Assembly (NCBI RefSeq): GCF_000745015.1
Contig: NZ_JQNA01000002.1
Coordinates: forward strand, 62,001-126,000
From: Burkholderia sp. 9120
GTDB lineage: Bacteria > Pseudomonadota > Gammaproteobacteria > Burkholderiales > Burkholderiaceae
Reading direction: 5' to 3'
DNA length: 64,000 nucleotides
A program made the position numbers and the translations under genes. The notes beneath the pieces are model-generated. The model saw only the letters and a list, made by a program, of their open reading frames with translations, had not been told where the DNA came from and did not search any database. Shown here one piece after another: positions 16,508-53,461 of this stretch; positions within the stretch are counted from its first letter, which is position 1; every line of letters starts with the position of its first letter.

Positions 16508-18183
16508 ACACGCCCGCCACGCTCCGCGCGCTGATCGACGAGCGCGCCGCGCAGTATCCCGACAAGCCTTTTCTGCTGGCCGCGCTCGACGACGAAGAAA
16601 CGGTCGCCCCCGAGCGTCGTGCGACCGTGCTGACGTTCGGCGCATTGCGCGACGATTGCCGCGTGCTGGAGACGCGTTTCAGGGACGCCGGACTGCGGCC
16701 GGGCGACGTGATTTCGGTGTTCATGGGCAACGGCATCCAGACCGCGCGGCTGTTGCTTGCCGCGATGTACAGCGGGCTGGTGGCGAATCCGCTGAATCTG
16801 TTGTGCCAGCCGTCGCAGGTGCGCTACATCGTCGGGCACTCGGATACGCGGATGATCTTCGCCGCGCGCGACACGCACGCCACGATCGAAACGGCGCTCG
16901 CCGCTCTGCGCGCCGAAGGGCTGACGCGCGAGATCGCGTTGATTGAAACGGAACCGGACGATCCGGCGCCGCCGTTGCTGATGCGATGCGAGCCTGCGTT
17001 GGCGGAAACCGGAGCGCACAACGCTGCGCTGGCTGCGGCGTCGGCTTTGACTTCAGCTTCCACTCCGCTTGCGCCGCGCAGCGTCCCGCACCTTGTTACC
17101 GACGAACCCACCGACGCCTCGACCGAACCCGCCGCCAGCGACGTCGCGTTGCTGATGTACACCTCAGGCACCACCGGCACGCCCAAAGGCGTGCTGCTGA
17201 CTCACCGCAATCTGGTTGCGAACGCACGCAACATTACCGCCGAACATCGGCTGAACGCGGACGATCGCGTGCTCGCGTCGCTGCCGCTTTATCACATCAA
17301 CGGTCTGGTGGTGACGCTGCTCGCGCCGCTGTTTCACGGCGGCTCGGCGGTGATGACGCCACGGTTTTCCGCACGCACCTTCTGGCGCGATGTCACGTTG
17401 CATGCGTGTACGTGGATCAACGTGGTGCCGACCATCGTCGCCTATCTGCTCAATGCCGATGAAGCCTGCACCTACGATCTGGCCGCGCTGAAGTTTTGCC
17501 GCAGCGCGTCGGCGGCGTTGCCGGCCGACCATCATCGCGCGTTCGAGGCGCGCTTCGGCATCGGCGTGATCGAAACGATGGGGATGACCGAAACCGCCGC
17601 GCCAGTGTTCAGCAACCCGTACGAGATGGAGCGGCGGCGGGTGGGCAGCATCGGCCTGCCTTCGGGCGGCGAAGCGCGCGTGATCGATCGCGAGGGGCGC
17701 GACTGCGCCGCCGACGAATGCGGCGAGCTGATTCTGCGCGGCGAACAGGTGATGGGCGGCTACTACAAGCGCCCCGAAGAAACCGCCGCCGCGTTCACCG
17801 CCGATGGCTGGCTACGCACCGGCGACCTCGGTTATCGCGATGCGGACGGTTACTTCTACATCAACGGCCGCGCGAAGGAACTGATTATCAAGGGCGGCGA
17901 AAACATCGCGCCGCGCGAGATCGACGAGGCGTTGCTGCGTCATCCGGGCGTGCTGGATGCCGCAGCGGTCGGCGTGCCCGATCCGGCGTATGGGCAGGAC
18001 ATCGTCGCCTTCGTGGTGCCGCGCCTGAACGACGGACGCGCCGCGCCCGATCCGGCCGAACTCCGCGAGCACTGCCTGCGCGAACTGGGCCGCTACAAGA
18101 CGCCGAAGGAATTCCGTTTCGTCGACGAATTGCCGCGTGGGCCGTCGGGCAAGGTGCAGCGATTGAAGCTGGTGCCCACGTGA
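16504..18183 (+). CDS. sauT: Sulfoacetate--CoA ligase (AMP-forming)
   Basis: AMP-dependent synthetase/ligase of 559 residues. The P-loop-like motif YTSGTTGTPKGVLLTH starts near residue 219. The C-terminal hinge GDLGYRDADGYFYINGR and the catalytic lysine in GPSGKVQRLK are present. ATG overlaps the sauS stop (16504-16507). The family makes acyl-CoA from carboxylate, ATP and CoA; in the sau pathway it activates sulfoacetate to sulfoacetyl-CoA. A stretch of about 40 residues near residues 160-210 is rich in Ala/Thr/Ser and looks like a variable loop. Confidence 0.9.
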   Translation: MNTPATLRALIDERAAQYPDKPFLLAALDDEETVAPERRATVLTFGALRDDCRVLETRFRDAGLRPGDVISVFMGNGIQTARLLLAAMYSGLVANPLNLLCQPSQVRYIVGHSDTRMIFAARDTHATIETALAALRAEGLTREIALIETEPDDPAPPLLMRCEPALAETGAHNAALAAASALTSASTPLAPRSVPHLVTDEPTDASTEPAASDVALLMYTSGTTGTPKGVLLTHRNLVANARNITAEHRLNADDRVLASLPLYHINGLVVTLLAPLFHGGSAVMTPRFSARTFWRDVTLHACTWINVVPTIVAYLLNADEACTYDLAALKFCRSASAALPADHHRAFEARFGIGVIETMGMTETAAPVFSNPYEMERRRVGSIGLPSGGEARVIDREGRDCAADECGELILRGEQVMGGYYKRPEETAAAFTADGWLRTGDLGYRDADGYFYINGRAKELIIKGGENIAPREIDEALLRHPGVLDAAAVGVPDPAYGQDIVAFVVPRLNDGRAAPDPAELREHCLRELGRYKTPKEFRFVDELPRGPSGKVQRLKLVPT

Positions 18184-39641: not shown

Positions 39642-41024
39642 ATGTCACGGGGTCAAGAAAGGGGTGTGCCAGACCTGTTCCGGCGTTTGGCTGGTGTTTC
39701 GCTGTGCACCGCGCTCGCGCTAGCGGGCTGCGGCGGATCGTCGGCGCCAGCAAATCCGCCGCAGCCGCCAGCGGGGCCCCCGACTTTCACCGTGGGCGGC
39801 ACCGTATCGGGGCTGGCCACCGGCACCACGCTCACGCTGAATGACAATGCCGGTGATCCGCTTACTGTGAGTGCGAATGGCGGGTTCACCTTCGCTACCC
39901 CGGTGCCGCTCAATGGCGCTTACGCCGTCACCATCGGCGCTCAGCCCGCAGGACAAACCTGCACGTTGTCGAACGGCTCCGGGTCGGGCGTGACGGCCAA
40001 TGTCGCCAGTGTGGGAATCAACTGCGTAATCGGCCCGGAATTCGCCTATGTAGTGAACATACTCGGCAACTCGGTTTCGCAGTACGCCATAGGCGCTAAC
40101 GGGGCGCTCACCCCCATGGCTGTCCCGTCTGTGCGGACGGGAGAGGAACCAGATTCCATCGCCATCGATCCTTCGGCTCGCTTCGCCTATGTGACAAACT
40201 CAATCGACGGCACGGTTTCGCAGTACACGATTGGCGCTGACGGTGCGCTCACCGCCGCGAGTTCCACGAGCGTATCGAGCCCATCGATTGGCGGCTTCAT
40301 AATGTCCGTCACGGTCGAACCTTCAGGTCGCTTCGTCTACGTGGCACAGGGAACTACGATTTATCAGTACGCGATAGGCACTAACGGCGCGCTGATGGCC
40401 GTGAGTTCGCCGACTGTGACGACGGGACGTTATTCGGAGTTCATCATCACCGATCGCACGGGTCGCTTCGCCTATGTGCCCTGCCAGGACAACTCGGTCT
40501 GGCAGTTCACGATTGGCACGAACGGTGTGCTCACGGCCATGAGTTCGCCAAGCGTGCCTACGGGAAGCCTTCCAGAATCCATCGCCCTCGATCCTTCAGG
40601 CCGTTTCGCCTATGTGCCAAACAGGGACAGCAACTCGGTTTCGCAGTACACGATAGGTGCTGACGGCGCGCTCACGGCCATGAGTGCCCCGACCGTGCCA
40701 GCGGGACTCGGTCCACAATCCATTACCATCGATCCGTCTGGCCGCTTCGCCTACGTGGCAAACGGCACCGACGACACAGTTTCGCAGTACACGATAGGTG
40801 TTGACGGTGCGCTCACGGCCATAAGTCCCACGACCATCTCGACCGAAGACTCTCCAACAACCTTCGCGGTTGATCCTTCAGGTCGCTTCGCCTATACGGC
40901 AACCTCGCCCTACGGCACGGTTGTGCAGTACACGATAGGTCTTGACGGCGCGCTCACGACCATGAGCGGCCCGGCCGTGCAGGCGGGACCGACGCCCGTG
41001 TCCATTGTGATATTTCGCCGGTAG
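39642..41024 (+). CDS. Lactonase/YncE-like beta-propeller lipoprotein
   Basis: Lipoprotein of 460 residues with a lipobox (LALAGC, Cys30). A Pro-rich linker and a domain with GGTVSGLATGTTLTLN follow. About seven repeats of roughly 47-50 residues then come, each with PSGRFAYV and a following QYTIGADGALT. This is a seven-bladed beta-propeller of the lactonase/surface-antigen type. It is anchored outside the cytoplasm. Substrate or partner unknown; similar proteins are often annotated as 6-phosphogluconolactonase-like, which is unlikely for an exported lipoprotein. Confidence 0.85.
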   Translation: MSRGQERGVPDLFRRLAGVSLCTALALAGCGGSSAPANPPQPPAGPPTFTVGGTVSGLATGTTLTLNDNAGDPLTVSANGGFTFATPVPLNGAYAVTIGAQPAGQTCTLSNGSGSGVTANVASVGINCVIGPEFAYVVNILGNSVSQYAIGANGALTPMAVPSVRTGEEPDSIAIDPSARFAYVTNSIDGTVSQYTIGADGALTAASSTSVSSPSIGGFIMSVTVEPSGRFVYVAQGTTIYQYAIGTNGALMAVSSPTVTTGRYSEFIITDRTGRFAYVPCQDNSVWQFTIGTNGVLTAMSSPSVPTGSLPESIALDPSGRFAYVPNRDSNSVSQYTIGADGALTAMSAPTVPAGLGPQSITIDPSGRFAYVANGTDDTVSQYTIGVDGALTAISPTTISTEDSPTTFAVDPSGRFAYTATSPYGTVVQYTIGLDGALTTMSGPAVQAGPTPVSIVIFRR

Positions 41025-43680: not shown

Positions 43681-44078
43681 CAAGCGCTGTCGTCGGGTCC
43701 TCGCCGGTACGAAACACAAATCGGCGCATGAAGTTTTACGCGCCGACTTCTCACGCAAACGTTTCCGCGTTTATGATTCAATCTTCATAACGATTCAAGA
43801 CTCATAAACACGACGCGCGTCGCAGAACGCGGCAATCAGGCGTCGTTCATACACCGCGTAATCCACTGCGCTTATTGCCTTGATCGCGCAGCAACTCATG
43901 TCCCGCGCATCGATTCCCATCGCCTCAACGGCCGATCAAGCAAAGGCGAAGCCCACTCGCCGCCAGACAGCAATTTTCAGATAGCACTGCGCAATTTCCC
44001 CTAAGAACTGACCGGCCAACCGTCGCTATGCTCCGGGCTCGGCTTTATCAAATCGTCGCGTCTTTTACGAGGAGATAT
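43681..44078. other. Intergenic segment with hairpin and direct repeats
   Basis: A 398-bp gap upstream of the biosynthetic operon. A hairpin TCGGCGC (43721-43727) and GCGCCGA (43740-43746) may end the solute-binding gene. Two near-identical repeats lie at 43775-43807. No gene seen. The first gene of the operon has GAGGAG before its ATG at 44079. Confidence 0.5.
43775..43807. promoter_or_regulatory. Tandem 17-bp-period direct repeat upstream of the biosynthetic operon
   Basis: GATTCAATCTTCATAA (43775-43790) and GATTCAAGACTCATAA (43792-43807) differ at 3-4 positions and are one base apart. Direct repeats are the usual target of AraC-type activators, and an AraC gene closes this cluster (51075-51950). 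They lie about 270 bp before the first start codon. Function inferred. Confidence 0.4.
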
Positions 44079-44990
44079 ATGGTTGTTCTATTCGGGCACG
44101 ATGAGCTGGACGAGGTGCTTCAGCGTCACGATTCCGCACCGCGGGCATCGACGGGTCAGTGCCATGGAACGTTCGGCGAATTGATGCAAGGCGTATTGCC
44201 GGACAACCGGCATATTCTCGTCACGCTGCCGATCAACCTGAAGAGCGTGATCGAATTCAGCGCCGCGCGCACCGACCGGGTGGGCGCCGACGTCAGCCGC
44301 AAGACCAAGGCGTGTCGCGCCGTCGAAGACTATTTGCGCCTCGCGGACCTGCCGCCCGGCGGCCTGCTGAATTTCAGATCGACGTTCCCGGTCGGCAAAG
44401 GGCTGGCGAGTTCCTCTGCCGACATGGTCGCGGCAATCCGCGCGGCAGCCGGCCATTACGGCCAGACGCCCGCGCCGGAAACGATCGAATCGGTGCTGCG
44501 CTTCATCGAACCGACCGACGGCGTGATGTACGACGGCGTCGTGTCGTTCTATCACCGCGAAGTCAAACTCGACGAACAGCTCGGCGCCACGCCGGGCCTC
44601 GCCATCGTGTCCGCCGATCGCGGCGGCGAATGTGACACCGTCGAATTCAACCGCCGCAAACACGAGATGCCCAGCGCGGTACGCCACGAATACCGGGACA
44701 TGCTGGCCGGCATGAAAGAGGCGATCCGCGCGTCCGACCTGCGCACCATCGGCGCCATCGCGACGCGCAGTTGCGATCTGTCGCAAGCGTTCAATCCGCA
44801 TCCGCACATCGACCTGATGCGCGAACTGCGTGCCGGGACCGACGCGCTCGGCCTCGTGGCGGCCCATTCCGGCACCTGCATCGGCCTGCTTTACGACACC
44901 GAGGACCCCGAGCGTCACGCCAAAACGGCGCACGTTCAGGCGTCGCTGCGCGCGCTACAGATTGAATCGAGTCAATACACGACGGTATAG
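44079..44990 (+). CDS. GHMP kinase, L-threonine kinase-like
   Basis: Protein of 303 residues in the GHMP kinase superfamily. The N-terminal CHGTFGELMQGVLPDNRHIL resembles L-threonine kinase PduX, and the phosphate loop GKGLASSSADM is near residue 108. PduX makes O-phospho-L-threonine for cobalamin synthesis, but no cobalamin genes are here. GAGGAGATAT precedes ATG 44079, an excellent ribosome site; the longer open frame is rejected. It is first in a tight operon (8 bp to the next gene). It probably phosphorylates a hydroxy amino acid to make a leaving group. Confidence 0.82.
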   Translation: MVVLFGHDELDEVLQRHDSAPRASTGQCHGTFGELMQGVLPDNRHILVTLPINLKSVIEFSAARTDRVGADVSRKTKACRAVEDYLRLADLPPGGLLNFRSTFPVGKGLASSSADMVAAIRAAAGHYGQTPAPETIESVLRFIEPTDGVMYDGVVSFYHREVKLDEQLGATPGLAIVSADRGGECDTVEFNRRKHEMPSAVRHEYRDMLAGMKEAIRASDLRTIGAIATRSCDLSQAFNPHPHIDLMRELRAGTDALGLVAAHSGTCIGLLYDTEDPERHAKTAHVQASLRALQIESSQYTTV

Positions 44991-44998
44991 GAATCCAG

Positions 44999-46003
44999 AT
45001 GCTCAGATATGAATCCTCGCTGGACGCGATGCGGGACGCCACGCTGTTTCCGATTGACGATGCGCTGCACATGGTGTCGTTCAAGGCGATGAAAATCGTG
45101 CCCGCGAACTTCATCATCCAGAAGGCAATCGCGCGCGGCGATCTGAAACCGGGCGGCACGGTCGTGGAAACGTCGAGTGGTAATTTCGCGCTCGGCATGG
45201 CGATTGTCTGCAACCGCCTGAAGCATCGTTTCGTCGCGATCGGCGATCCGGCTATCGAGCCGTCCTACCAGCGCCAGTTGGAAATGCTGGGCGGCCAGGT
45301 CGAAATCATCACGGAAAAAAAGGGCAGTCAGGGTTATCAGAAAGCGCGCCTGGACCGTCTGCATGAAATTCTCGACGACGAACCCGGCTCGTTCTGGTGC
45401 CGCCAATACGACAACGAGGACAACGCGAACGCGTATGGCGAGCTAGGCCGCGAGTTGCTCGCCGCCGTGGGCCAGCAGTTGGTGCTGGTCGCGCCGGTCG
45501 GCTCGGGCGGTTCGAGCTGCGGGATCGCCAGTGCATTGCGCGCGGCCGGCGCGGACTGCACGCTAGTGGGCGTCGATACGTTCAACAGCATTCTGTTCGG
45601 CCAGCCGGACGGACCGCGCAAACTGCGCGGCCTCGGCAACACGGTGATGCCGAAGAACCTCAGGCAAACCCTGTTCGACGACGTGCATTGGGTCGGCTCG
45701 GACTTCGCCGAGCATTTCACGCGCAAGCTGTATTCGTCCACTGGACATTTTCGCGGACCGACCACCGGCGCGGCTTTCGCGGTGGCGCGCTTCGTCCGCG
45801 AGCGCTATGCAGCGACGCCCGTGGTGTTCCTGAGTCCGGACGACGGTTCGCGCTACGTCGACACGACCTACGCCGCCGACCCCGCCAACGCCACCTACGA
45901 CACGCTCGCACCGCAACAGATCGCGCAGCCGACCGCGTACGCGCCTGACGCCGACTGGGCATGGATGAACTGGCAACGCGCCGATATTCAACAATACCGT
46001 TAA
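44999..46003 (+). CDS. PLP-dependent cysteine synthase-fold enzyme
   Basis: Fold type II PLP enzyme of 334 residues, cysteine synthase/SbnA-like. Putative PLP lysine is Lys29 in HMVSFKAMK, the substrate loop is SSGNFALG at residues 59-66, and the phosphate-binding glycine loop is GSGGSSCGIASAL. It is missing the usual first 15-20 residues of the family. Coming straight after a GHMP kinase, it probably does a beta-replacement or elimination on a phospho-amino acid, by analogy with enzymes that use O-phosphoserine. Product not determinable from sequence. Confidence 0.83.
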   Translation: MLRYESSLDAMRDATLFPIDDALHMVSFKAMKIVPANFIIQKAIARGDLKPGGTVVETSSGNFALGMAIVCNRLKHRFVAIGDPAIEPSYQRQLEMLGGQVEIITEKKGSQGYQKARLDRLHEILDDEPGSFWCRQYDNEDNANAYGELGRELLAAVGQQLVLVAPVGSGGSSCGIASALRAAGADCTLVGVDTFNSILFGQPDGPRKLRGLGNTVMPKNLRQTLFDDVHWVGSDFAEHFTRKLYSSTGHFRGPTTGAAFAVARFVRERYAATPVVFLSPDDGSRYVDTTYAADPANATYDTLAPQQIAQPTAYAPDADWAWMNWQRADIQQYR

Positions 46004-46006
46004 GCC

Positions 46007-48577
46007 ATGGCGATCATTTACGTCGAATCGAACACCACGGGCTTTGGGCACCGCTTGCTGGAGGTGTCGTGTCTGTATGACAGTGTCCATTTCTTCATTA
46101 GCGACCCGGCGCGCTATGCCTTTCTGGACCAGTTGCCGGCCGGGGTGAATGTCGTACGTTGCGATACGCGTTCAGTCGACGCGCTTCGCGAGGCGTGTGC
46201 GCAGATCGACGCGATCCGCTATGTCGTGTCGACGAGCGATGCGTTCATCGACATCGCCGCGCGGCTGTCCGACGAACTCGGTTTGCCGACCAACTCCGCC
46301 GCGGCCATTGCGCTATGCCGCGACAAGCTGCGCTTGCAGGACGTGCTGCGCGACAGCGGCGTCGCGTATCCGCACACCACCACGATCCGCTCCGCCGACG
46401 CCGTGGCGCGCCTGAGCTTTCCGGTGATCGTCAAGCCGAGGCAAGGCACGGGCAGCATCGGCGTTCGGCTGGTTGAAAGCGCGCAGGACTTTCCGGATCA
46501 ATTCGACGACGACATGATCTGCCAGCGCTTCATTCCGGGCACGGAGTTTTCGGTCGAATCGTTCAGCGACGCCGACGGCCATCAGATTCTCGGCGTCACG
46601 CGCAAGTTCGTCACCAAGCCGCCGCACTTCCTCGAACTGGCCCACGTGTTTCCGGCCGACCTCGACACCGCGATTCGCTCGCGGATCGTCGATACGGTGC
46701 GGCGCGCGCTCGACGCGGTCGGCTACAGCTTCGGCCCCGCGCATACCGAGGTGAAGGTACACGACGGCGCGGTATCGATCATCGAAATCAACGCGCGGCT
46801 CGCCGGCGGCATGATTCCGACGCTGATGGAGCGCTCGTTCGGCTGGTCGATGGCGGAGCTGTATATACGCAGCTATCTGGCCGGCCGCAGCCAGTTCGTG
46901 GTGCCGACGCCCGCGCTCTACAGCGCCGTTGCGTTCGTGGTGCCGGAGGTAGGGCGTCGCTATGTCGGCATCGACTTTCCGAGCGATTGCGCCGACGCCG
47001 GCATGTTTCGCAGCGAAGGCGTCAACGCGGGCAAGTTCGACTTTTCCGACCGCGCGGGTTATGTGATTTCGGTTGGCCGTAGCGCAATGTCGGCGCTGCG
47101 GCAAAGCCTGTCGCTGCGTATGCGTTCTGCTGTGCTCTATGACGACCGGCGCGAACCGCCGCCCGACGCGCAGACGATTCACGAGATCGTCTACCGCAAA
47201 AACGGGCCGAGCTTCGGCGCACTGACCGACACGCTGCTCGTGATCGAAAAAGCTCACCTGACGATGCTGCGTCAGCAACGCATGCTCAGCGCTCCCCAGT
47301 TCGAGGCGTTGAAACAGGCCGTGCTCGCGCTGGAAGCCGATCCGGGTCTGCTACGCAATCACAACTCCGGCCGCGGCGATTACTTCGATTACGAAAACTA
47401 CGTGATCGACCGGTGCGGACGCGAAACGGGCGGCATGATCCAGGCGGCTCGCTCGCGCAACGACATCAACAGCACGCATCTGTCGCTGACCTTGCGCGAG
47501 GCGCTGTCGCGGGTGAGTTCACGCACCGTCGATCTGGCCGCCGTGCTGGCGCGCCGTGCCAACGAAACCGCCGACATACTGTTGCCGATTTACAGCCAGT
47601 ATCAAACGGCCATGCCGGGTTCGGCCGGTCACTATCTGGTCGCGCAATGCCAGATCCTGCTGGATACGCTGGGTGCGTTATCGGCTTTGCATGACAGCCT
47701 GAGCGTGTCGCCGCTCGGCGCCTGCGCGGGCGCGGGGACGACGTTCGCCACCGACACGCACAGCACCGCGGCCTTGCTCGGCTTCGCGAGCGGCCCGTCG
47801 AATTCGTTGCGGGCGATCAGCGACAAGAATCATGCGCAGCGCGGCGTGTATCTGCTGACCGAACTGAGCGGCAACCTGAACCGGATCGCCAGCGACCTGC
47901 AACTGTGGACCATGCGCGAGCTGGCGCTCGTCGCATTGCCGGACGCGATGTATGGCGGCTCGTCCAACATGCCGCAAAAGCGCAACCCGTACCTGCTCGA
48001 ATGGCTGCGTCTCGGCCACGAACGCAACGCCGCCCGCTTGACGATGGCCGTATCGTCGCTGTCGCATCTGCCGACCGGCAACTCCTATCAGGCGAGCCGC
48101 ACGGCTATCGAAACGCTGGTCGAATCGACCGTGCAGATCGTGGATATGCTGACCGTGCTGACCTATGCGATCGACGGCGCGCGTTTCGATGCCGACGCCG
48201 CACGTCGCGCGCTTGAAGCGGGTAACGGTTGCGCGACGCTCGCGGCGGAACGGCTGGTGCAGCAGCACGAGGCGTCGTTCCGCGATGCCCACTCGCGGGT
48301 GGGCCGCGCACTCGCGCCGGCCGCCATGACCACAGCGCCCACATCCGGCGACGCAAGCGCGCGAGCTTTGCTCGCCAGCATCAACGACGAACTGACCACC
48401 GGCCACGTATTCGAGCGGCTCAGCGGCGGCGGCGGCCCATCGGCGGATAACACGCGCGCGGCATGGAAAGCCCTCGACGCGCAACTCCGCGACGCCCGCC
48501 GACATCATCTGGCGCGCGACGCGCGTGCCGCCGCGCTCGCGCGCGAACTCGATCGCCGCTTCAGGAGAACCCTGTGA
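46007..48577 (+). CDS. ATP-grasp ligase fused to argininosuccinate lyase-like domain
   Basis: Large two-domain protein of 856 residues. Residues 1-400 are an ATP-grasp ligase: FPVIVKPRQGTGSIGV near 141 and metal-site EINARLAGGM near 260. Residues about 420-856 are a fumarase/aspartase-superfamily lyase of argininosuccinate lyase type: AARSRND near 479 and the signature GSSNMPQKRNP near 651 with the catalytic serine. The gene starts 3 bp after the PLP enzyme stop. A likely chemistry is ligation of an amino acid (perhaps aspartate) to a carboxylate, then fumarate-type elimination leaving a new amide or amine. This fusion is not one I know from a named pathway. Confidence 0.85.
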   Translation: MAIIYVESNTTGFGHRLLEVSCLYDSVHFFISDPARYAFLDQLPAGVNVVRCDTRSVDALREACAQIDAIRYVVSTSDAFIDIAARLSDELGLPTNSAAAIALCRDKLRLQDVLRDSGVAYPHTTTIRSADAVARLSFPVIVKPRQGTGSIGVRLVESAQDFPDQFDDDMICQRFIPGTEFSVESFSDADGHQILGVTRKFVTKPPHFLELAHVFPADLDTAIRSRIVDTVRRALDAVGYSFGPAHTEVKVHDGAVSIIEINARLAGGMIPTLMERSFGWSMAELYIRSYLAGRSQFVVPTPALYSAVAFVVPEVGRRYVGIDFPSDCADAGMFRSEGVNAGKFDFSDRAGYVISVGRSAMSALRQSLSLRMRSAVLYDDRREPPPDAQTIHEIVYRKNGPSFGALTDTLLVIEKAHLTMLRQQRMLSAPQFEALKQAVLALEADPGLLRNHNSGRGDYFDYENYVIDRCGRETGGMIQAARSRNDINSTHLSLTLREALSRVSSRTVDLAAVLARRANETADILLPIYSQYQTAMPGSAGHYLVAQCQILLDTLGALSALHDSLSVSPLGACAGAGTTFATDTHSTAALLGFASGPSNSLRAISDKNHAQRGVYLLTELSGNLNRIASDLQLWTMRELALVALPDAMYGGSSNMPQKRNPYLLEWLRLGHERNAARLTMAVSSLSHLPTGNSYQASRTAIETLVESTVQIVDMLTVLTYAIDGARFDADAARRALEAGNGCATLAAERLVQQHEASFRDAHSRVGRALAPAAMTTAPTSGDASARALLASINDELTTGHVFERLSGGGGPSADNTRAAWKALDAQLRDARRHHLARDARAAALARELDRRFRRTL

Positions 48578-49449
48578 ACAGCTTGACCCCATCGCCCCAA
48601 TCGCCCCCGTCCACCCCATCCAGCCCGTCGATGCCGGCCATCACCGTGCTGTGCTCGGACGGGCCGCATCATCTGTATCTGGCGGGCGAAATCCTGAAGA
48701 CCTTCGGCAAGGTGCGCCTCATCGTCGAACCCGGCCACGCTCAGGTGTCGCGTTTGTGGCGTAACCGCCAATACCGCGCGTATGGCTGGACGCGTTATCA
48801 CCAATGGCGGCGCAGCCTGTTCGGCTACGACGCGTACCGTCAGCGCTATTTCACGCAAGGCGAAGCGCCGCTCACCTGGGACGCGCTGCTCCGCGACGCC
48901 CGCGTTCGGCTGATCGAAACGCCGTGGATCAACGATCCCTGCGTCGTCGAAACCTTGCAGGAAGAGGGCGCCGACGCGTATATCGTGATGGGCACCAAGA
49001 AGATCGGCGAGGCCGTGCTCGCGCAGATTCCGCCGGACCGGATTCTCAATCTGCACGGCGGTCATCTGCCTCACTACAAGGGCAATCACTGCTTCTTCTT
49101 CGCGCTGCATCACGGCGAATTCGACAAGCTGAGCACAACGCTGCACCGCGTGGCGTCCGGTCTCGATACCGGCGAGATCGTCTCGCACCACACGGTGCAA
49201 TTCCAGCAAGGCGACAATTCGGAAACGCTCTATTCGCGCGCCGAAAAACGGGCCGTGGACAACCTCGTCGCCCGCCTCAAGATGGACCCGGATGTCACGC
49301 GCTGGGACAGCGAACCGCAACCCGACGCGGGCGCGACTTACCGGATGCGCGATCGCGGCCCGCTGCTCGAAATCGCGCACCGCTTCGCACTGTTGCGCCA
49401 CCTGCATGCGGTGTCGGCCGTGCGCCGGAAAGGGAATCAGGCTCGATGA
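48574..49449 (+). CDS. Formyltransferase (Fmt/PurN-like)
   Basis: Protein of 291 residues. GTG start at 48574 overlaps the previous stop (GTGA) and has AGGAG six bases before. A Ser/Pro-rich leader of about 20 residues precedes the catalytic domain. The Asn-His catalytic pair is in ILNLHGGHLPHYKGNH and the Asp in GLDTGEIVSHH, the triad of 10-formyltetrahydrofolate-dependent transferases. No tRNA-binding domain is evident, so it is unlikely to be the housekeeping Met-tRNA enzyme. It probably formylates an amine of the pathway product. Confidence 0.85.
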   Translation: MNSLTPSPQSPPSTPSSPSMPAITVLCSDGPHHLYLAGEILKTFGKVRLIVEPGHAQVSRLWRNRQYRAYGWTRYHQWRRSLFGYDAYRQRYFTQGEAPLTWDALLRDARVRLIETPWINDPCVVETLQEEGADAYIVMGTKKIGEAVLAQIPPDRILNLHGGHLPHYKGNHCFFFALHHGEFDKLSTTLHRVASGLDTGEIVSHHTVQFQQGDNSETLYSRAEKRAVDNLVARLKMDPDVTRWDSEPQPDAGATYRMRDRGPLLEIAHRFALLRHLHAVSAVRRKGNQAR

Positions 49450-50042
49450 ACAGCGCCCTGATTGCCCAGCTTTCGCAGGTCGCGCTGTTTTCGATCCCGC
49501 TGACCATTTCGCCGGGGCCGAACAATCTGATGATGACCACCAATTGCGCCCAGTTCGGTTTCCGGCGCACGCTGCCTTCGCTGGTCGGCATTTCGCTCGG
49601 CGTGTTCGTGCTGTTCATGGTGGTGGCGCTGGGTCTCGGCGGCGTGCTGGCCCGCTATCCGCAACTGCATCTCGCACTGAAAGTGGTGGGTTCCGCGTAC
49701 ATTCTGTATCTGTCGTATCTGCTGTTCACGTCGCATTCGTCGAGCGCGCAGAAGAAATCGACCGAACGGCCGATCACTTTCGTTCAGGCGGCCTTGCTGC
49801 AGGTGTTGAATCCGAAGATCTGGCTGCTCGCGGCAACGGCCTGTTCCACGTTTCTCCCCCTGACCGGCAACGTGCATGTCGACGCGATTCTGCTGTCGCT
49901 CACGCTCGGCGCGATCTTCTTTCCGTGCAACTCGATCTGGGCGCTGTTCGGACTCGTGATGCGCGGGGTCATGCGCGGCCGGGCGTTTTACCGGACCATG
50001 GGGTTGATGACCGCGTCGTCGGTCTTTTTCGTGCTGTTTTGA
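49446..50042 (+). CDS. LysE-family exporter
   Basis: Membrane protein of 198 residues with about six helices. The motif ISPGPNNLMMTTNCAQFGFR near the N-terminus is diagnostic of LysE/RhtB amino-acid exporters, and LLQVLNPKIWLLAATAC is the second conserved stretch. ATG overlaps the formyltransferase stop by 4 bp. It likely exports the amino-acid-like product, as LysE proteins do in several non-proteinogenic amino acid clusters. Confidence 0.9.
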   Translation: MNSALIAQLSQVALFSIPLTISPGPNNLMMTTNCAQFGFRRTLPSLVGISLGVFVLFMVVALGLGGVLARYPQLHLALKVVGSAYILYLSYLLFTSHSSSAQKKSTERPITFVQAALLQVLNPKIWLLAATACSTFLPLTGNVHVDAILLSLTLGAIFFPCNSIWALFGLVMRGVMRGRAFYRTMGLMTASSVFFVLF

Positions 50043-50097
50043 GTTGGCTAATTCGCCGCGACGTCACGGCTTGCGCGCATTTCTATCAAGGACGGCC

Positions 50098-51054
50098 ATG
50101 AACCACATCGTGCTAGCTTTTTGCATCGACCCGGCAAAAGATCCTGTTTCGTCGCATGTGCTCGCGCGACTGCTGGCCTCGGGCGCTTTCACGCCGACCG
50201 ACGACAGCGTCGACGGCCACCCCGTGTTGCGTGCGCAACTGGGCAGCGTGCGCTGCGATCTGCTGCAACTCGACGACGTGCTGAGCCACGACTATCCCCG
50301 CTACGCGCCGATCCTCAACGACGGGTTCGGCACCGCCGACGCGGTCATCATCGTCAACTGGCACGAAGGCAAGAACGCGCCCGATCCAATCTTCACCGTG
50401 CAAACCACGGGCGACATCGAAACCGGCACCTTCAGCCCCGTCGATCCCACCGTGACGCGCGCGCTGTTCCTCGCGGTGGAAGCGCAGCGGCAAAAGGCCG
50501 GCCTCGGGCAATTCTCGACGTGGATGGAGGCGACGCACTGGTCCGGGCCACTGTACGGCGCCGCGTCGGGCAAGCTGGTCAACCTCGTGAAGCCCTCGGT
50601 GATCGATCTGGAGATCGGCAGCACGCCGCGCGCGTGGTCGTATCCGGCCGCCGCCGCGGTGCTCGCGCGGGCGCTGCTCACGGCGTTCGAGTCACCGCGG
50701 AAACCGGCGATTTCGCTCCTCGGGATCGGCGGCACGCATTTCGAAGCGGGCTTCACGCAACTGCTGCGCGACTACGGCGAATCGCAAGGGCTCGCGTTTT
50801 CGCATCTGCTGCCGAATCACTGGCTGGTTGCGCATCGTTATGAATCGTCGGCGCGGCTGCCTGATCTGCTGGCCTGCGCCCGCTCGATCAAAGGCGGCGT
50901 GGACGCGATTGCGTTCCACGACAATCTGAAAAGCAGCTACAAACATCAGGTGCAATTGCTTGCCAGCGAGCTTGGCGTGCCGGCGTTCTCGCACCGCAAA
51001 CTGCGATCGGACGACATAGCCGGTCTGATTCGCGACGCCCGCGTCGAATCGTGA
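50098..51054 (+). CDS. D-aminoacyl-tRNA deacylase, DTD2/GEK1-like
   Basis: Protein of 318 residues resembling the archaeal/plant DTD2 (GEK1) family rather than bacterial DTD1. Matches in order: FSTWMEATHWSGPLY, VIDLEIGSTPRAW, LLGIGGTHFEAGFTQL near residue 208 and FSHLLPNHW. In archaeal proteins the last glycine motif is GIGGGHYAP; here it is GTHFEA, so the site may be altered. AAGGA precedes ATG 50098. At the end of a biosynthetic operon it may clear tRNA charged with the product or damaged by a reactive intermediate. Confidence 0.72.
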   Translation: MNHIVLAFCIDPAKDPVSSHVLARLLASGAFTPTDDSVDGHPVLRAQLGSVRCDLLQLDDVLSHDYPRYAPILNDGFGTADAVIIVNWHEGKNAPDPIFTVQTTGDIETGTFSPVDPTVTRALFLAVEAQRQKAGLGQFSTWMEATHWSGPLYGAASGKLVNLVKPSVIDLEIGSTPRAWSYPAAAAVLARALLTAFESPRKPAISLLGIGGTHFEAGFTQLLRDYGESQGLAFSHLLPNHWLVAHRYESSARLPDLLACARSIKGGVDAIAFHDNLKSSYKHQVQLLASELGVPAFSHRKLRSDDIAGLIRDARVES

Positions 51055-51074
51055 TGCGTGATGGACGTGGCCGA

Positions 51075-51950
51075 TCAAAGCCCTCGAAGCGCTCTCGGCG
51101 GATAGCCGAAGTGCTTCTTGAACGCGGTCGTGAACTGGCTATGCTGCGCGTAGCCGCATTCGAGCGCGATGGTGGTGATCTTCTGCGGACTGTTCTTCAA
51201 CAGGTTGTGCGCACGGCTCATTCTCGCGTGGGTCAGAAACGCATGCGGCGAGTGGCCGAAGGTGGTCTTGAATTTACGCAGAAAGTGATACCGGCTGAGA
51301 CTCACCAGGCTCGCCAGATCTTCGAGCCGCACCGGTTCGCCGAGGTTGTCGCTCAGATAGTCGCGCAGCAGTTTGGTCTGCTGGGCCGAGAAACGGCCGC
51401 GCGTATTCGGCGCGTCCAGATCCGTGGCGGCATACGAGCGGATCGTGTTGAGCAGAATCCAGCTCATCAGACCGTCTACGCCGAGCAGCAGCGACTTGTC
51501 GTCCCAATCGGCGAGCGCGATGCTCGCGGCCGCTGCGCTAATGACCGGCGACGCCTCCTGGAACACCTCGCGGAACGAATAACTCTCCGGCGGCTGGCGC
51601 AGCGACTGCAGCAGGCTTTCCTCGAAGTTGCGCGGATCGAAATACACGTGCAGGAAATTCAGCCGCTCGGTGATCTGCCACTGCGACTGGCCTTCGCCAA
51701 TAGGGAACAGGCAGACCGCGTTCTTGAAGCCGCGCCGCAAAATCTGCCGGCCCAGCACCTGGTTGCAGTTTTCCCCGCCCGACAGATACACGCTCAGCAC
51801 GTTTTCGTTCGAGCTTTGATACTCGGTGAGCGTATTGCGGCCGGTCCATTCCGACACCACGATGCCCGACGGCAAGTGCATGGACCGGACGAGCTCGGCA
51901 CCCGCCGATTTCAGCGCGCCTCTGACGTTAATCGAGTTTGAAGACCGCAT
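51075..51950 (-). CDS. AraC-family transcriptional regulator
   Basis: Protein of 291 residues with an N-terminal sensor region and a C-terminal AraC domain holding two helix-turn-helices (LEDLASLVSLSRYHFLRKFK and IALECGYAQHSQFTTAFKK, ending FGYPPRALRGL). It converges on the biosynthetic operon, with 20 bp between stops. It is the natural candidate for its activator, with the repeats at 43775-43807 as a possible site. Ligand unknown. Confidence 0.88.
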   Translation of the reverse strand: MRSSNSINVRGALKSAGAELVRSMHLPSGIVVSEWTGRNTLTEYQSSNENVLSVYLSGGENCNQVLGRQILRRGFKNAVCLFPIGEGQSQWQITERLNFLHVYFDPRNFEESLLQSLRQPPESYSFREVFQEASPVISAAAASIALADWDDKSLLLGVDGLMSWILLNTIRSYAATDLDAPNTRGRFSAQQTKLLRDYLSDNLGEPVRLEDLASLVSLSRYHFLRKFKTTFGHSPHAFLTHARMSRAHNLLKNSPQKITTIALECGYAQHSQFTTAFKKHFGYPPRALRGL

Positions 51951-52159: not shown

Positions 52160-53461
52160 TTATTCGCTGCTGGTCCACTCCACGTTCGCGCCCACCGAAC
52201 GCAAATTCTCGACGAAACGCGGATGCGCGCGGCGGATCGGCAGTGCATTCATGATCTCCGAGCGTCCTTCAATACTGGCCGCGACCATCAGCAACGCAAT
52301 CGCCACGCGAATGATGTACGGGCTCTCGACGCGCGCCGGGCTCAGCGTCAGCCCGCCGAACGTGATCAGCCGGTGCGGATCGGACAGGAACACGTGCGCG
52401 CCGAACTTGGACAGTTCGCTGGTCCAGCCCATCGCGCCGTCATAAACCTTGTTCCAGAACATTGCGCTGCCCTCGGCCTTCACGCCGAGCGCGACGAAGA
52501 TCGGCAGCAGATCGACCGGCACATACGGCCACGGCGCGGCTTCGACCTTGGTGAGAATGTTCTGGGTGAACGGCCGGCGCACCTGCAGCGCGCCGTTGCT
52601 ATGCGCGCGCGACCAGCCATCGCGATGCACCACGTCGACACCGAACTTCGCGAAGGTGCGGTCGATCAGCGGGAACTGCTCGGGCGCCGAGTTCCTGACC
52701 ACGATGTCGCCGCCGGTGATCGCGCCCAGCGCGAGAAACGTGGCGATTTCGTGGAAGTCTTCGCTGAAGCGGAACTCGCCGCCGCCGAGCCGCTTGCCGC
52801 CCGTCACGCTGAGCCGCGAGGTGCCGATACCGTCGATGCCTACGCCGAGCATCGCGAGAAAGCGGCAGAACTCCTGCACGTGCGGCTCGGACGCCGCGTT
52901 GGTGAGCGTGGAGGTGCCGTCGGCCGCCGCCGCGCACAGTGCGAAGTTTTCGGTGGTGGTCACCGACGCATAGTCGAGCCAGTGATCGTTGGCGGCCATG
53001 CGCCGCTCGGTACGCACGATCAACGACTCGTCGGTGCGCTTGACGCGAGCGCCGAAACGCTCGAACACCTCGACGTGCGGGTCGATCTCGCGCACGCCGA
53101 GCGTGCAGCCTTTCACGTCGCTTTCCAGCCGCGCCACGTTGAAACGCGCGAGCAGCGGCGGCACCAGCATGATCGACGAACGCATCTCCTCGGGCAGCTT
53201 GTTTGTGACCGGATCGAAGGTGGTGGCGTGGTGATGCAGATCGAGCAGGCCGGTCGAGAAGTCCACCGACACATCGCTGCCCAGCGCGCGGAAGATGTCG
53301 AGGATTTTCTTGACGTCGGTGATCTCGGGCACGCCGATCAGGCGTACCGGTTGATCGGTGAGGAGGGTAGCGCAGAGAATCGGCAGAACAGCGTTCTTGT
53401 TGGCGGACGGCGTGATTTCGCCGCGTAACGGCAGGCCGCCGTGGACGATCAGGTTGGACAT
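52160..53461 (-). CDS. murA: Divergent MurA-like enolpyruvyl transferase
   Basis: Protein of 433 residues with the EPSP-synthase fold of MurA. Conserved: Lys22 in SANKNAVLPI, Arg94 in EEMRSS, the PEP-cysteine Cys119 in KGCTLGVREIDPH, and the aspartate in YVPVDLLPIF. Known MurA transfers enolpyruvate to UDP-GlcNAc. It looks unlike the usual Burkholderia MurA and lies outside the normal hisA/murA neighbourhood, so it is probably a second copy. The fosfomycin target cysteine is kept. It stands between an AraC-regulated cluster and a LysR gene. Confidence 0.8.
   Translation of the reverse strand: MSNLIVHGGLPLRGEITPSANKNAVLPILCATLLTDQPVRLIGVPEITDVKKILDIFRALGSDVSVDFSTGLLDLHHHATTFDPVTNKLPEEMRSSIMLVPPLLARFNVARLESDVKGCTLGVREIDPHVEVFERFGARVKRTDESLIVRTERRMAANDHWLDYASVTTTENFALCAAAADGTSTLTNAASEPHVQEFCRFLAMLGVGIDGIGTSRLSVTGGKRLGGGEFRFSEDFHEIATFLALGAITGGDIVVRNSAPEQFPLIDRTFAKFGVDVVHRDGWSRAHSNGALQVRRPFTQNILTKVEAAPWPYVPVDLLPIFVALGVKAEGSAMFWNKVYDGAMGWTSELSKFGAHVFLSDPHRLITFGGLTLSPARVESPYIIRVAIALLMVAASIEGRSEIMNALPIRRAHPRFVENLRSVGANVEWTSSE

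Follow-up and report, generated by a model that had tools for sequence, protein, structure and literature searches.

A compact biosynthetic cassette occupies positions 44079–51950 of a 64,000-nucleotide stretch of Burkholderia sp. 9120 DNA (contig NZ_JQNA01000002.1, positions 62,001 to 126,000), referred to here as the window, and comprises six co-directional genes and a convergent gene for an AraC-family regulator. The cassette is a conserved gene set, which is real and not a chance arrangement. Comparative sequence analysis suggests, with a probability of about 0.45, that it is a horizontally spread operon whose product is a small N-formylated derivative of a vicinal diamino acid.

In the proposed pathway, a PduX-type kinase would phosphorylate L-threonine or L-serine, and an SbnA-like pyridoxal phosphate (PLP) enzyme would swap the phosphate for the amino group of L-aspartate. 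The lyase domain of a fusion protein would then eliminate fumarate from the N-substituted aspartate, yielding 2,3-diaminobutyrate (from threonine) or 2,3-diaminopropionate (from serine), and the ATP-grasp domain of the same protein would couple the diamino acid with a further amino acid or carboxylate. Finally, a formyltransferase would cap an amine with formate from formyl-tetrahydrofolate, a LysE-type transporter would export the product, and the AraC regulator may control the operon via a repeat of 21-bp period.

Organization and conservation of the cassette

The initial annotation of the window described six tightly spaced genes read in one direction and a convergent AraC gene, and all seven were found in their predicted places; every one of the encoded proteins matches a Pfam family with a score exceeding the curated cut-off. 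The six co-directional genes span 44079–51054 with successive gaps of 8, 3, -4, -4 and 55 bp (coordinates are positions within the window, and start sites were set in this analysis), and base composition is uniform across the operon (GC 0.60–0.65, GC3 0.80–0.82).

Thirteen close loci were compared, consisting of the window, a second locus from its genus (L034), two from Paraburkholderia (L001, L002), two from Burkholderia (L003, L006), three from the group that holds L003 (L029, L030, L031), two from Paracidovorax (L004, L005), and one each from Halomonas (L007) and Salinicola (L008). Because many of these are close relatives, they amount to about five lineages. Gene order is kept across all 13, so the genes are not scattered in relatives, an outcome that the initial annotation had named as one that would undo its reading. 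The kinase, PLP enzyme, fusion, formyltransferase and AraC genes are linked in 13/13 loci, the LysE gene in 11 (not in the two Paracidovorax loci), and the DTD2-like gene also in 11 (not in Halomonas and Salinicola). A search for LysE elsewhere in the L004 genome, which was the one of the two Paracidovorax genomes searched, found no close copy, the best match being 27% identical.

The nearest named matches of the fusion protein belong to Paraburkholderia (93 and 90% identity). At E≤1e-60 the fusion was matched in 10 of 398 genomes of the family, the own genome included; eight of these (again including the own genome) are at least 68% identical, and two are 36% identical. In the class sample, it was found in 1 of 369 genomes, which is the own genome, and in the sample of the Halomonas family in 2 of 201, both of them already known. 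The patchy and rare occurrence of the cassette fits horizontal transfer.

The kinase and the PLP enzyme

The first gene (44079–44990, + strand), with AGGAG directly 5' of its ATG, encodes a GHMP kinase of the PduX (L-threonine kinase) type with PF00288 and PF08544 matches above cut-offs. It is homologous to the product of a Salmonella gene annotated as PduX over 83% of its length (E 2e-10), yet the two are only 26.8% identical, and Pfam identified none of the seven cassette genes as one of propanediol or cobalamin metabolism. The motif GKGLASSS is kept in eight close rows of the alignment and appears in variant forms in distant rows. Compared with solved structures, the single kinase sequence matched nothing at 1e-3, and a kinase profile matched GHMP kinases in general, for the most part mevalonate and homoserine kinases. 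By homology to PduX, the enzyme may phosphorylate L-threonine; because of this likeness, and because normal serine synthesis supplies phosphoserine anyway, threonine is slightly favoured over serine as the substrate.

The second gene (44999–46003, +) encodes the PLP enzyme, whose best match among solved structures is SbnA (E 2.8e-31), with CmnB at E 2e-23. M31, K32 and Y137 are invariant in 11/11 sequences, K32 aligns to the lysine of the SbnA motif MKDRPA, and a tyrosine is kept at SbnA Y152 (SbnA residue numbers were counted from the alignment). Taken together, the enzyme is a probable catalyst of beta-replacement on a phospho-hydroxyamino acid. The product of SbnA is an N-substituted diaminopropionate; as no SbnB-like partner was seen by Pfam among the seven proteins, the lyase could take the place of SbnB. 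A homologous PLP enzyme is thus common to the window, to the SbnA/SbnB route of staphyloferrin B and to diaminopropionate synthesis of the VioB/CmnB type, but the window has a lyase and an ATP-grasp domain instead of SbnB, and a dedicated kinase in addition. If the PLP enzyme eliminated the phosphate rather than replacing it, a product of the vinylglycine type would result, a type to which the initial annotation pointed because a formyltransferase also occurs with LysE in such clusters; this is very improbable, since it leaves no place for a fumarate-releasing lyase and the nearest relative of the enzyme catalyses beta-replacement.

The ATP-grasp/lyase fusion

The third gene (46007–48577, +) encodes a protein that matches NCBIfam NF002563 (PRK02186, ATP-grasp/argininosuccinate lyase fusion) along residues 1–840 with 945.5 bits against a cut-off of 625. 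An ATP-grasp domain of the amino acid ligase type covers residues ~1–360, and a C–N lyase domain of the argininosuccinate lyase type residues ~410–840. The nearest solved structures of the ATP-grasp part are the dipeptide ligases BL00235 and BacD, and K143, E260 and N262 are invariant in 18/18 ATP-grasps; unlike these homologous L-amino acid ligases, the ATP-grasp of the window is fused to a C–N lyase.

The lyase domain carries SRND and GGSSNMPQKRNP. SRND is kept in 17/17 lyase rows of the core, and the SS loop is kept with variants (GISA in L038). At position 531, where argininosuccinate lyases have the His of the THxQ motif, the window protein has Gln, and so do 17/17 fused rows, as well as 10/10 fused rows in a second alignment that overlaps the first. 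EDDS lyase from Chelativorans, an enzyme of chelator metabolism, is a relative in which the domain can be aligned (E 2.4e-30 to 3.6e-30), although it has 508 residues and no ATP-grasp fusion. Its substrates are N-substituted aspartates with an amine as the leaving group, as in the adduct proposed here. Gln531 aligns with Q159 of EDDS lyase (a counted position), and a paper that names 6G3H lists Q159 among the residues near the substrate (PMC12363623). The chain aligned in our analysis, 6rx8, was taken as an EDDS lyase variant because its length and range match those of the 6g3d–6g3i chain.

The name that NCBI gives to the fusion is argininosuccinate lyase, which would suggest that an arginine branch of ordinary amino acid metabolism has been misread as a cluster. 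This is hardly credible: the fusion scores 190.6 bits with the argH model TIGR00838, below the cut-off of 279.5, a separate 472-codon ArgH-like gene is present in the genome, and the cassette is rare and patchy. On the first two grounds, arginine metabolism was rejected.

A four-function core in other bacteria

More distant bacteria also combine kinase, PLP, ATP-grasp and lyase functions, at ~28–44% identity. The same fusion occurs on rhizobial plasmids (L024–L027, L035–L037), in Reyranella (L009) and in the Burkholderia group (L032, L033), while ATP-grasp and lyase are encoded separately in Sulfuriferula (L028), Reinekea (L010), Azospirillum (L044) and Streptomyces (L039, L042). The ATP-grasp has a different fusion partner in Kitasatospora (L038) and S. 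globosus (L040): it is joined there to the PLP enzyme and has an L-amino acid ligase C-domain. Genes annotated as non-ribosomal peptide synthetases (NRPS) or adenylation domains surround L038, L039, L040 and L042, and L032 adjoins a protein that combines condensation, adenylation and carrier domains; such a position beside NRPS genes fits a building-block role for the core. The claim of the initial annotation that the operon has no obvious known counterpart was therefore too strong, since the fusion is a named NCBI subfamily (NF002563) and the core recurs in many bacteria, in NRPS clusters as well.

At least 36 of the 60 kinase records listed (out of 89) lie within 500 bp of a PLP match, by a hand count for which 60 of 132 PLP matches were listed. 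Across 18 four-function loci, the pairwise distance matrices of the proteins correlate at 0.69–0.95, with the PLP/ATP-grasp/lyase pairs at 0.91–0.95. When six loci of denser groups are removed, the distances of these three functions still correlate at 0.54–0.83 among the 12 distant loci left, and none of 1000 permutations was as high. These correlations suggest that the three steps form one chemical unit that has been inherited together. The kinase correlates with the ATP-grasp at r 0.39 in the same 12 loci (3/1000 permutations as high).

Several observations weigh against the proposed pathway. At these 12 loci, kinase distances fail to track those of the lyase (r 0.01, 447/1000 permutations as high), which suggests that the kinase has been exchanged and that the substrate may vary, and their correlation with the PLP enzyme is weak (r 0.23, 54/1000). 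Among the matches listed, 24 of the 60 kinase records have no PLP match nearby, although some such matches fall outside the listed ones. Pantoea L041 has kinase, PLP enzyme and ATP-grasp but no lyase in 18.8 kb, and of the core only the kinase and PLP enzyme were found in 17 kb of M. loti L043. The PLP enzyme of the window itself scores 204.9 bits with the SbnA model TIGR03945, below the cut-off of 349.95, and has Gly in place of SbnA S185. Aspartate as the nucleophile, the partner of the ATP-grasp ligation and the site of formylation are guesses. Lastly, unfused lyases of the same core keep His in 7/7 cases, which indicates that the core reaction can do without Gln and makes Gln531 a weaker argument when it is extended to the core in general.

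The His of the unfused lyases also speaks for the main rival scheme, in which the lyase would act on an amide as in purine synthesis. Here the kinase and the PLP enzyme would make some other beta-substituted amino acid, the ATP-grasp would couple the carboxylate of this product to aspartate, and the lyase would free fumarate and leave a primary amide. The fusion of ATP-grasp and lyase in one group, their co-occurrence within one cluster in the remaining cores seen with all four functions, and the correlation of their distances are in line with such a sequence of steps. Against it, the fused lyases share their Gln with EDDS lyase, which releases an amine, and in Kitasatospora and S. globosus it is the PLP enzyme to which the ATP-grasp is fused instead. 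On balance, the amide scheme is unlikely, albeit not negligible, and the diamino acid pathway is preferred.

The surroundings of the core vary. The Pantoea L041 plasmid cluster (8911–16329) holds kinase, PLP enzyme, two ATP-grasps, an MFS protein, an M17 peptidase and a methyltransferase, and on the M. loti L043 plasmid (4536–10310) a kinase–PLP pair lies between transketolase and threonine synthase. Many other rhizobial plasmids have such pairs. The core is near nif-type genes and ACC deaminase in S. fredii L024 and S. americanum L037, and a second ATP-grasp gene is found nearby in L024, L026, L027 and L035. Reinekea L010 (5667–13524) and Sulfuriferula L028 (1539–12624) have an added haem-oxygenase-like iron enzyme, a TIM-barrel isomerase-like protein and a second ATP-grasp, and on the Sulfuriferula plasmid an acyl-homoserine-lactone synthase adjoins the core according to the annotation. 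In L033, a second, more distant lyase-like stretch (16545–17594, - strand; 27% identical) lies beside the kinase gene.

The formyltransferase and the exporter

The fourth gene (48574–49449, +, GTG start) encodes an N-formyltransferase (PF00551). The catalytic triad of this superfamily is formed by Asn, His and Asp, and N159, H161 and D198 are invariant in 12/12 sequences. The protein is far from the methionyl-tRNA formyltransferase model TIGR00460, with 41 bits against a cut-off of 201.5. A word-limited search of 5.8 billion proteins gave 38 relatives at E≤1e-5, and the subfamily occurs mainly with this cassette; in the plasmid search, it appeared in one record, in which no cassette gene was found.

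The fifth gene (49446–50042, +) encodes a LysE/RhtB-family amino acid exporter (PF01810). Its nearest NCBIfam models are those of the cysteine/O-acetylserine exporter (2.9e-20) and the homoserine/threonine exporter (4e-19), both of which it matches below cut-off, and this likeness to exporters of Cys/O-acetylserine and Thr/homoserine counts in favour of the pathway.

The presence in one operon of a formyltransferase and an exporter of the single-amino-acid type is also compatible with a free N-formylated diamino acid as the product. The ATP-grasp would then be a cyclase or an acyl ligase, closing for example a ring on the diamine or formyl group, and vicinal diamines cyclise easily as a matter of general chemistry. 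This alternative is doubtful, since the best structural matches of the ATP-grasp are dipeptide ligases, its relatives have an L-amino acid ligase C-domain, and some cores have the ATP-grasp but showed no match to the formyltransferase. A ligated product remains the preferred form of the diamino acid pathway.

The DTD2-like protein

The sixth gene (50098–51054, +) encodes a DTD2-like protein with a PF04414 match of 91.9 bits (cut-off 33.6). Six NCBIfam deacylase or related models match it, all below their cut-offs, and it matches the solved UPF0204 protein AF0625 (1yqe) at E 9.9e-6. PF04414 is common to archaeal and plant DTD2, but the window protein has THWSG where archaeal AF0625 has THHG and belongs to a bacterial branch in which the THWSG, EIGS and GG-H motifs are present in 9/9 members. 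This branch occurs in Bradyrhizobium, Prosthecochloris, Longimicrobiaceae, Acidobacteriota and others. A distant formyltransferase (P0267) and a DTD2-like protein (P0223), both on 11,618-b jgi contigs, hint that the two genes may be neighbours elsewhere too. The plasmid search for the DTD2-like protein returned one record, in which it is unannotated, and a search of the class of Reyranella returned 0/385 genomes at E≤1e-20, an empty answer that carries no weight.

The role of the DTD2-like protein in the operon is uncertain. In the reaction set offered by the initial annotation, phosphorylation, PLP-dependent replacement, ligation, lyase step, formylation and export all fit the domains, catalytic residues and linkage, and self-protection by the DTD2-like protein is its weak part: the Halomonas and Salinicola genomes that carry the cassette have no such gene at E≤1e-10. 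An obligatory self-protection was rejected on the same ground. A more specific version, which we consider speculative and rather improbable, is that the products are a hitherto undescribed class of formylated antimetabolites, with the core making a 2,3-diaminobutyrate dipeptide by the aspartate-donor route and, in Burkholderiales, the DTD2-like enzyme clearing tRNAs charged with the product. If true, this would put self-protection at the level of aminoacyl-tRNA.

The AraC regulator and its candidate operator

The AraC-family regulator (PF12833) is encoded at 51075–51950 on the - strand, convergent to the operon, and its counterparts in the 12 other close loci are 62–99% identical to it. Operators of AraC-family proteins typically consist of two direct repeats that are two helix turns apart. 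A direct repeat GCAAT-N16-GCAAT with a 21-bp period, a probable AraC operator, lies at 43970–43997 (+) and is conserved 5' of the kinase gene: GCAAY-N16-GCAAY is found in 13/13 close loci, at distances of 39–110 bp from the kinase start taken for each. The pattern was derived from an alignment of 12 of those same loci, so this count describes the repeat and does not test it. In a control in which 25 spacers (6 to 30) were tried, a spacer of 16 gave 13/13 and every other spacer at most 2/13. A longer form of the pattern has an expectation of 0.12 copies per 64 kb at one mismatch; in its exact form, it occurs once in the 8.46-Mb genome that carries the window, and a reversed control pattern likewise occurs once. 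The initial annotation did not mention this likely AraC operator.

Relation to known diamino acid clusters

Lipopeptide clusters of the friulimicin type reportedly contain a diaminobutyrate (Dab) cassette in which a kinase gene accompanies cysteine-synthase-like and argininosuccinate-lyase-like genes for the synthesis of 2,3-diaminobutyrate. The same combination of kinase, PLP enzyme and argininosuccinate-lyase-like lyase is linked in the window and the 12 other close loci, so that three of the four core functions match. Compared with the friulimicin-type cassette, the window adds the ATP-grasp to the core, together with a formyltransferase and an exporter, and there is no NRPS in the operon; Pfam found none among the seven cassette proteins, the part of the window that was scanned for one.

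Cysteine synthase and argininosuccinate/adenylosuccinate lyase genes are reported from the cluster for Dab-containing gausemycin; in the excerpted text of that report, the genes are not assigned to Dab, and the cluster of another producer is described as being without them (PMC12471526). A literature search, which covered titles and the beginnings of abstracts among the matches listed and few subscription papers, returned no description of the gene set of the window. The cassette follows a known diamino acid logic, and its new elements are the ATP-grasp within the core, the cassette-typical formyltransferase, the AraC operator candidate, and the DTD2-like gene (11/13 loci).

Flanking genes

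A gene at 52160–53461 (-) adjoins the cassette and encodes an enolpyruvyl transferase that we take, from its sequence, to be MurA-like. It is present at 88–100% identity in 16 of 77 genomes of the genus (E≤1e-100), and in 14 of the 16 carriers none of the AraC, kinase and DTD2-like cassette genes lies within 1.5 kb of it. An empty-site search with seven flank and cassette proteins found none of them within 1.5 kb of the MurA-like gene in these 14 genomes, which are the carriers besides the own genome and one other, and it led to no empty site. Elsewhere in the window, the product of 39642–41024 (+), as judged by eye, starts like a lipoprotein and contains repeats of beta-propeller-like motifs (DPSGRFAYV... 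QYTIG).

Significance

The four functions form a recurring module, with two different gene fusions, that is spread over alpha-, beta- and gammaproteobacteria and actinomycetes, and the module offers a handle for the mining of hidden diamino acid products, including those of NRPS clusters and rhizobial plasmids. The version in the window is compact, with seven genes, one operator candidate and no NRPS in the operon, and could easily be expressed whole. In addition, the bacterial DTD2-like family gains a biosynthetic context in which its function may be tested.

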